This document shows, piece by piece, positions 38,351-41,850 of a stretch of 64,000 nt of DNA. Both the position numbers and the translations under genes were made by a program. The notes under the pieces are model-generated. The model searched no databases. It was not told the DNA's origin and was given only the letters and a program-made list of their open reading frames with translations. Origin of the DNA: Methanococcus maripaludis C5 (GTDB lineage Archaea > AGJL01 > Methanococci > Methanococcales > Methanococcaceae); contig NC_009135.1 of the NCBI RefSeq assembly GCF_000016125.1, positions 124,001-188,000 of the forward strand, in the 5' to 3' direction. Within the stretch, counting starts at the first letter, position 1. Every line of letters starts with the position of its first letter.

Positions 38351-39199
38351 TTAGTATGGAACTGGTAAACCAATTTCTTTCCTGTGTTCTACTTCTTTTG
38401 CATTTTTCTCTTTTTTGGAGATAGCGAGTTTTTCAACCAATCCTAAACCTGGTTTTACAGCGTCAATCTCTTTTGTTTCAAGAGCGCCAGCTTCAACCAT
38501 TTTGTTTAAGTACTCTTCCCCTTTTGCAGTTCTAACAAAGATTGTACTCCATCCGTCCGGACTTCCTACTGATCCTGTTGAGATATCTGCAAGTTCTGCT
38601 GTGTAATCCATACATACGTGGCATGAACCTTGTTCGTATGGGTGGGTGTCTTTTAATGGAACTGTTTTTACATCGCCCCATTTTGAGTAAACCCAGAATT
38701 TACCTTTTCCGATGTCGGTTTTTACAACATCGTCCATTTTGATACCGCAGTGTTCTTCAACAATTGCTTTCATACCGTTGTACGGGAAGTTTTCCATACA
38801 GAAGATACCCATAATTAATGCAATCTTGTCTGGAACGTGCCTGTATCCAACAGGGTATTTTATTGCTTTTCTAATTGATCGGACTTGGCAAGGGGTTCCA
38901 ACGAATCCAAGTTTGTCGCATCCATATTCTCTTACAGCGCTTTTTACTACTGAAAGGTTAGAACATACTGTGTATTTTGTTCCTGCAGCGCTTAAGATTT
39001 CTTCTCTTGTTGTAGCAACTTTTGGAACTGCTGCGAATCCATCTTCTTTGTCTGCAATAATTACACCATCGAGAAGTCCGCTTTCTAAACCGTAAATGTA
39101 TGCGGCAGAAACGATACCTCCGTCTTGTGCTTTCTTAAGGATTTCTTTGTCTGCAGCTCTTGCGGAAACTGCTTTTATATATGTTCCAAAGGGATCCAT
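38351..39199 (-). CDS. fruB: Coenzyme F420-reducing hydrogenase, beta subunit
   Basis: The 282-residue protein is FrhB-like, beginning [17 protein letters not shown], with DGGIVSAA and [13 protein letters not shown] blocks and a conserved cysteine set (CMENFP, CHVC) for an iron-sulfur cluster. It binds FAD and is the site where F420 is reduced. It is the last gene of the fruADGB group, 33 bases after fruG with a GGTGA site. Confidence 0.94.
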
Positions 39200-39232: not shown

Positions 39233-39919
39233 TTATTCTATTTTTTCAATTAAGTCAGGGAATCTAATTCTAGGGCACTGAACTGAGCATGAGCCACATT
39301 TTATACAGATTTCCTTGTCAACCAATGGTCTTCCTGCATCCATAGATACTGCTCTTGTAGGGCATGCTGCTGCACATGAACCGCATCCCATACAGAGTGA
39401 TTTGTTAATTACTTTTGTAATCAAATCGCATCCACAAGCTTCTGATCCATATTTTGCAAGTTCTGCATAGGGTTCTAAGTATTCCATATCGCCATTTAAT
39501 GCCGCTAAAACAACTGCAACTATAGATTCTGGTGATGGTGGACATCCTGGAATTGCCAAGTCACATTTTACAACTTCTGTTAATGGTGCAAATGCATCAT
39601 GAACTGGTTTTGATGGTTGATTTCCTTTTGAAAATCTTGTAACATTACCGGTAGCAGCACAAGCCCCTAAAGCAACTAATATTTTTGCTTTCTTTCTGGA
39701 ATCAAGTGCAACTTCCATTGCGTGGTGGTCGCTTAAACAAACGCTACCTTCGAGTAAGATTATGTCTACATCGTCAGGAACTTCTCTTACATCAGCAAGA
39801 GTCTGGGAGTAAACTAAATCTATAGCTCCTAAAACATCTAAAAGCTTTTCATAGGTGTCTGCAAGGGAAACTAGACACCCACAGCAGCTACTTAATTGCA
39901 CGTGGGCAACTTTTACCAT
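39233..39919 (-). CDS. fruG: Coenzyme F420-reducing hydrogenase, gamma subunit
   Basis: The 228-residue small-subunit-like protein begins [16 protein letters not shown] and later has [10 protein letters not shown] and PGCPPSPE (proximal cluster ligands), then two C-terminal ferredoxin motifs, [12 protein letters not shown] and [12 protein letters not shown]. It passes electrons from FruA to FruB. GGGAGGAG precedes the ATG. The gene is 14 bases after fruD. Confidence 0.95.
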
Positions 39920-39933
39920 GATATTCTCCTCCC

Positions 39934-40458
39934 TTAGTTGATTGGTTTTCCCCTTAATTCGGAAAGTACTATGTCTACGGCTACATCTACTGCATTTTGG
40001 ACTTCTTCTGACAGTTCAATTACTACATCAGGTTCTGAAACGTACTTTTTCTGACAACCAACAACTTTAAAGTCTATTTCATGAGGTGCATCTCTAAATA
40101 CCCTGTACATGGTAGTTGAGAGTGGCCAGTCATGACTGTCAACTTTTGTATGTTCTGGTTTTGGAAGGTCATCCATAGTAAGTATCTTAATTTCTCCCGG
40201 TTCTAGTCCGTAATCGATAATATCTACGACTATGATTTTCTTAGTCTTAGCTTCACTGTCGATTAAAGTGAGCACCTGTTGAGGAGCACCTGCTCCGGCA
40301 TCTACCAGTGCAATATTTTCTTTTTCTTCTTCAGTCAATAATTCCTGTAATTTTTCGATTACATGGACACTGAATCCATCGTCTGCAAATAGGATATTTC
40401 CGCATGCAAGAACCATATTTTCCTTTAACAGGTAAGAAGGGGTTAGTTTATATTCCAT
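39934..40458 (-). CDS. fruD: F420-reducing hydrogenase maturation protease
   Basis: The 174-residue protein has the hydrogenase-maturation peptidase pattern: [19 protein letters not shown] at the start and [14 protein letters not shown]. Conserved acidic residues in this fold bind nickel. It should cleave the FruA C-terminus after the conserved His. It lies between fruA (98 bases away, including the SECIS hairpin) and fruG, so it matures the product of the gene beside it. Confidence 0.93.
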
Positions 40459-40504: not shown

Positions 40505-40540
40505 GTCTCTTGAGGTCCATTAAGGTTCCCTTTTTGAGAC
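40505..40540 (-). promoter_or_regulatory. Archaeal SECIS element in the fruA 3' UTR
   Basis: On the minus strand, starting 17 bases after the fruA stop, GTCTC and GAGAC pair as the lower stem. Inside it GG-GAA-CC and GG-A-CC form two G-C helices with an asymmetric GAA/A internal loop and a TTAAT cap. This is the archaeal SECIS pattern known from methanogen selenoprotein mRNAs, in the expected place. It would direct selenocysteine insertion at the in-frame TGA of fruA. Confidence 0.85.
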
Positions 40541-40556
40541 TTTCCTTTTCAGGAAT

Positions 40557-41801
40557 TTAAAATTCTCTTATTTCAACAACGTTTTTAGTCTGTTCATCTT
40601 TTACGATGACGTGCGTAGCACATGAAGCTCATATGTCGTAAGCTCTCATAATTACTTCCGCATATTGATGGTGGTAACCTTCAATAGCTTTTTCAACAGC
40701 TGGGAAGTTCCACGTTGAAGCAGCAATGATATTGTATTTTTCGATTTTACCATCTTTACCCATTTTAGCCATGTGGGTGTTGATGGCCCTTGGTGCTTCG
40801 TGAACACCTATACCGTATTCTTCTTTTGCATTACTGAAGTTAGGTATTTCTCTTGTAGTTCCGTTAATGTTTAATTCATCAATAAGTTCCAATGATCGTT
40901 TAACAGCTTCAAAGTTTTCCATCGCTCTCGCAAGGTTAATGTCCATTGCTCCACCGGCAGATTTGAAGTTTCCGTATTTAATCATTCTTGCTCTAGGTCC
41001 ACCTTCTGCAGGGTTTCCCCTGTAGAATGGGATCTGGTTTGTTGCGGTTTGTGCAATATCTGGGAAGTCTGCATAGTATCTTTGTGCAGTAACTTCTGTT
41101 ATATCTTTAAAGTTGATAGCATCTCTGTTACCAAAGGTTGTGTCTGAAGCAATATATGGGAGATCATGTTTACCTAAATCAGGAATTCCAATTTCTTCCA
41201 AGTATCTTTCCATTAACATTTCTAATACTTCTAACATCGCATTACAGTCTTTTTCATATTCTCTGCAAGCATAGTAGAGTTTAGCTTTTGCCCTTTCGGT
41301 GATGTTTGTTCTCATTCCACCAACCATTAAGTTTGGAGGGTGAATTCCTTCTCCACCGGCAACATCTACAAGCATCTGTCCAGCTTTTCTCATTCTCTGG
41401 ATTAATTTAATTCCTTCTACTCTTAAAGTTCCTGCTTCTTCAGGTTTTAAAAGGTCATCTACAATTAATAAGTGGTGTAATGGGTGCGAATGCATCCTAT
41501 TTCCTAAACCTACTAATTCTCTTAATATCATACCGTCTTTTGGTATTTCCATGTCAATAGCGTGTTCGATTGCCTCACATGAAGCAATACCGTGGGTTGC
41601 CTGACATATACCACAAATTCTCATAACTGCAATAGGGCCGAATGCTGCAGGTTTTCCTTGCAACATTGTTTCGAAACCTCTTACAGGGGTCGTATTTGGA
41701 TAAAATGCCTTAGTTACAATCCCTTCATCATCTACGTTCAAAACTAGCTTAGCATGCCCTTCATGTCTAGTTGTAGGGCTGATAGTTACAGGTTCTGCCA
41801 C
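40557..41801 (-). CDS. fruA: Coenzyme F420-reducing hydrogenase, alpha subunit (selenoprotein)
   Basis: The 414-residue NiFe-hydrogenase large subunit is read through an in-frame TGA (40629-40631) as selenocysteine. N-terminal nickel ligands lie in RICGICQATH. The C-terminal motif is DI-Sec-ASCATH, with Sec391, Cys394 and His397 in place of the usual Cys-xx-Cys-xx-His. The 17 residues after the His would be removed by FruD. A naive ORF call stops at the TGA and loses 24 residues. The GTG start at 41801 has GGAGGTGA five bases upstream. An archaeal SECIS hairpin follows the stop. It oxidises H2 to reduce F420 and is the first gene of fruADGB. Confidence 0.94.
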
Positions 41802-41850
41802 TTTAGTCACCTCCAAGGGTAATATGCATACATTAAACTTTCTTTCTCGG

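Follow-up and report, generated by a model that had tools for sequence, protein, structure and literature searches.

Codon 391 of fruA in Methanococcus maripaludis C5, an in-frame UGA, is almost certainly read as selenocysteine (Sec) by means of a SECIS hairpin in the 3′ untranslated region (UTR). Three lines of evidence point to recoding by an archaeal SECIS downstream of the gene: the protein family, the order-wide conservation of both TGA and hairpin, and the complete set of Sec machinery genes; experiments in the sister strain JJ add to them. The sequence-only reading from which this analysis started had described FruA as a selenoprotein with an in-frame TGA and a matching SECIS; frame, motif, family, conservation, and machinery all agree with that description, and nothing contradicts it. 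The Sec codon and SECIS of fruA are already known in the same species, down to their spacing, and nothing is novel for fruA itself: a textbook case is repeated, with the recoding read correctly from raw sequence.

The features concerned, located in the window (the whole stretch of 64,000 nucleotides that was analysed), are the following:

40557..41801, minus strand: fruA, Sec-containing large subunit (translation with TGA as Sec; TIGR03295 frhA, 593 bits versus a cut-off of 392.5)
40629..40631, minus strand: TGA codon for Sec391 within the C-terminal metal motif IUASCATH (translation; TGA in 35 Methanococcales homologues)
41604..41621, minus strand: N-terminal metal motif RICGIC with Cys63 and Cys66 (translation)
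40542..40555, minus strand: small 5′ stem-loop TTCCTGAAAAGGAA before the SECIS (folding)
40505..40540, minus strand: hairpin of the fruA 3′ UTR, an archaeal SECIS with a kink-turn-like GAA/A motif (folding, motif searches, comparative pairing)
39934..40458, minus strand: fruD, encoding the maturation endopeptidase of the hydrogenase, with its expected cut in FruA behind His397 (TIGR00130 frhD, 191 bits versus 135)
39233..39919, minus strand: fruG, hydrogenase gamma (small) subunit (TIGR03294, 361 bits versus 245.5)
38351..39199, minus strand: fruB, F420-reducing hydrogenase beta subunit (TIGR03289, 464 bits versus 331.5)

The operon order is fruADGB, with fruA first. When TGA is read as Sec, fruA extends from a GTG at 41801 to a TAA at 40559-40557, and translation from this GTG yields 414 residues, including Sec391, Cys394, and His397, with 23 residues after Sec. 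The product passes the cut-off of the curated FrhA/FruA family, and its UGA takes the place of the first Cys in the C-terminal CxxC (U391-A-S-C394), a replacement conserved across Methanococcales. Simple ORF calls truncate genes such as fruA: as had been anticipated, the table-11 ORF ends at the TGA (40631-40629), and reading this codon as Sec gains the 23 further residues and a proper stop. We prefer the GTG at 41801 to the TTG at 41816 chosen by the ORF caller because GGAGGTGA precedes the GTG. The interval originally given without a strand, 41801-40505, lies on the minus strand, opening exactly at this start and closing with the hairpin's final base.

The Ni-Fe ligands of [NiFe] hydrogenases are two CxxC pairs, and the maturation protease cleaves directly behind the His of CxxCxxH. 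In FruA, we take the ligands to be Cys63 and Cys66 of RICGIC together with Sec391 and Cys394, and His397 is the expected maturation cleavage site and no Ni-Fe ligand. In the solved FrhA structure 4ci0, the last residue of the chain aligns with His397 (residue 402 of the ORF call, which starts five residues earlier). The proposal that reading through the TGA completes a ligand set of Sec391, Cys394, and His397 consequently stands for Sec391 and Cys394 only; hydrogenase knowledge and the end of 4ci0 make His397 the expected cleavage site instead. The mature enzyme most likely lacks the 17 residues after His397, cut off by FruD, since the 4ci0 chain ends at the aligned residue, the fruD gene adjoins, and this His is the expected protease site. 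Judging from strain JJ and the homologues, the kink-turn-like SECIS in the 3′ UTR would direct the archaeal Sec machinery (SelB and Sec-tRNA) to the fruA UGA, and the ribosome would read codon 391 as selenocysteine; Sec391, Cys394, and the two N-terminal cysteines would hold the Ni-Fe centre, and FruD would then take off the 17-residue tail.

The hairpin has the layout GUCUC-AAAA-AGG-GAA-CC-UUAAU-GG-A-CCU-CAA-GAGAC and starts at the 17th base past the TAA (40540-40505), just where a hairpin with the archaeal GAA/A internal loop had been reported, seventeen bases on. The 16 bases in between are unpaired or form a small stem, and 88 nt separate the UGA from the first base of the SECIS stem. The canonical archaeal features are all present, namely a GAA opposite an A, G-C clamps on both sides, and a loop within 4–6 bases (AGG GAA CC UUAAU GG A CCU). 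Folding of the 3′ UTR and comparison with methanogen SECIS elements, as the sequence-only reading had recommended, showed a fit to the archaeal layout, with two apical C-G pairs and a five-base loop as in strain JJ.

Folding energy alone (-14.9 kcal/mol, z = -1.75, for the hairpin region) is unremarkable and not decisive; the strong evidence is the core motif. The pattern GGGAACC N3-8 GGACC has one match in the window versus 0.01 expected in shuffles, and the fruA hairpin is the sole match of a search on both strands for GAA/A with G-C clamps. An Rfam search, run both at the gathering threshold and with E values allowed up to 10, returned no SECIS family and chance matches only. A small covariance model built from relatives' hairpins placed the fruA hairpin at the top of its genome-wide ranking but only weakly, with 21.1 bits (E 0.024); this model has only 5 pairs, several lower stems are misaligned in the underlying MAFFT alignment, and its other hits were given no weight. 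Its second-best match, located within a long open frame, looks fortuitous. The small stem-loop before the SECIS is found at the same place in two other loci (L002 and L003), belonging to the closest relatives only, and its JJ counterpart is reported to be dispensable (PMC9622424).

Homologues were searched in 41 genomes, and the best FruA match was taken from each of 35 Methanococcales genomes, including that of strain C5. All 35 matches contain a single internal TGA, accompanied in one of them by a TAA. In the 32 distinct loci that were read directly, the TGA sits in the metal motif, with a TAA and a hairpin behind it; two further loci read directly bring codon and hairpin together to 34 of 35 homologues, L063 being the one left out. 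A search of genome contigs for homologues yielded distant bacterial ones only. A single base would turn TGA into a Cys codon, TGT or TGC, but that it arose by sequencing error is barely conceivable and, on the comparative data, untenable: the same gene carries TGA in 34 other genomes, and the Cys paralogue described below is without the hairpin.

The pairing of the hairpin is conserved, too. In the 32 scored hairpins, every core pair cell (160/160) is standard-paired across five distinct cores that include double changes (AGG/CCU, GGG/CCC, AAG/CUU; CC/GG, CU/AG), and compensatory changes from G-C to A-U preserve the pairing. The outer helix has at least 4 bp in 31/32 hairpins, with 14 different sequence pairs; when arms were swapped among species, such a helix remained in 14 rows on average and in no more than 20, a test that is indicative only, the species being related. 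The peptide after the TGA is likewise conserved while its codons vary synonymously. One relative (L008, genome G008) has AAA/A in place of GAA/A in the kink-turn-like motif of its fruA SECIS, a variant described for fwuB (PMC11881835).

The genome of strain C5 also encodes a full-length Cys-type paralogue, frcA (C1:622456-623658), whose product is 53% identical to FruA and which has TGT at the Sec position (motif DPCVSCATH versus IUASCATH); direct reading of this locus showed no SECIS-like hairpin. Another hydrogenase large subunit is encoded nearby (C1:625390). FrcA and the FrhA proteins (for example PDB 9r51, 3zfs, 4ci0) are F420-reducing hydrogenases of the same family and operon type as FruA, with Cys instead of Sec. 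Such a paralogue might suggest that the fruA TGA is a real stop in a truncated, dying copy replaced by frcA, to which we assign a very small probability: the frame after the TGA and the hairpin are conserved order-wide, rendering it untenable, and in strain JJ both operons coexist, frcADGB rising and fruADGB falling when selenium is withheld (PMC11097638). A second complete gene with the Cys motif had been named at the outset as a sign that fruA is not expressed; frcA is that gene, yet it refutes nothing, and the sign was ill-chosen, because frcA is the known low-selenium isoform.

Selenocysteine at codon 391 also agrees with what is established for related FruA proteins. M. maripaludis JJ has nine selenoproteins, FruA among them, and studies of archaeal recoding use the SECIS of its fruA as their reference element. 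The JJ gene (MMJJ_14570) resembles that of C5 in fruADGB order and Sec-containing large subunit (PMC9622424, PMC11881835, PMC11097638), and its SECIS resembles that of C5 in the GAA/A motif, the two apical C-G pairs, the five-base loop, and the distance from the UGA, given as 88 nt (PMC9622424); any differences are expected to be at strain level only. The JJ element was shown experimentally to direct UGA recoding in vivo (PMC9622424, PMC11881835): its 3′ UTR served as the SECIS of a reporter, in which one change in GAA/A abolished function (PMC9622424), and parts of it, including the two apical C-G pairs and the five-base loop, were mutated (PMC11881835). PMC2933860 lists Methanococcus voltae FruA among the selenoproteins, citing a reference from 1992. 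Like that of C5, the FruA proteins of M. voltae and Methanocaldococcus jannaschii belong to Sec-containing F420-reducing hydrogenases, the latter having a 3′ SECIS that has been tested (Halboth and Klein 1992; Rother et al. 2001; as cited in PMC2933860 and PMC9622424), although their hairpin stems have diverged from that of C5 around the same kink-turn-like motif.

Absence of the Sec machinery had been put forward as grounds for abandoning the selenoprotein; a genome search found the set complete, with tRNA-Sec (anticodon TCA), SelB, SepSecS, PSTK (396 bits), and SelD, which is itself a selenoprotein with its own TGA. VhuU, too, has a TGA and its own SECIS-like GAA/A hairpin (AACC GAA CCCTAATTGGG A GGCT). 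The second contig of this genome, a plasmid of 8,285 bp, shows 100% identity to NC_001811 of M. maripaludis C5.

At its 3′ end (C1 about 685900-686020, minus strand; L070:1-120), the selD frame of C5 reads ...KILEL-UGA-CGA-UAA, unlike those of six genus relatives, which end in UAA. The UGA lies directly before the selD SECIS (GATAATCC GAA CCTAAATTTAGG A GGATTATTATC), and the UAA is inside the SECIS stem. This UGA either terminates translation in an mRNA that bears a SECIS or is decoded to give Sec-Arg; we consider it improbable that some of the product carries such a Sec-Arg extension. If true, selD would be a natural test of how near a SECIS UGA recoding can occur.
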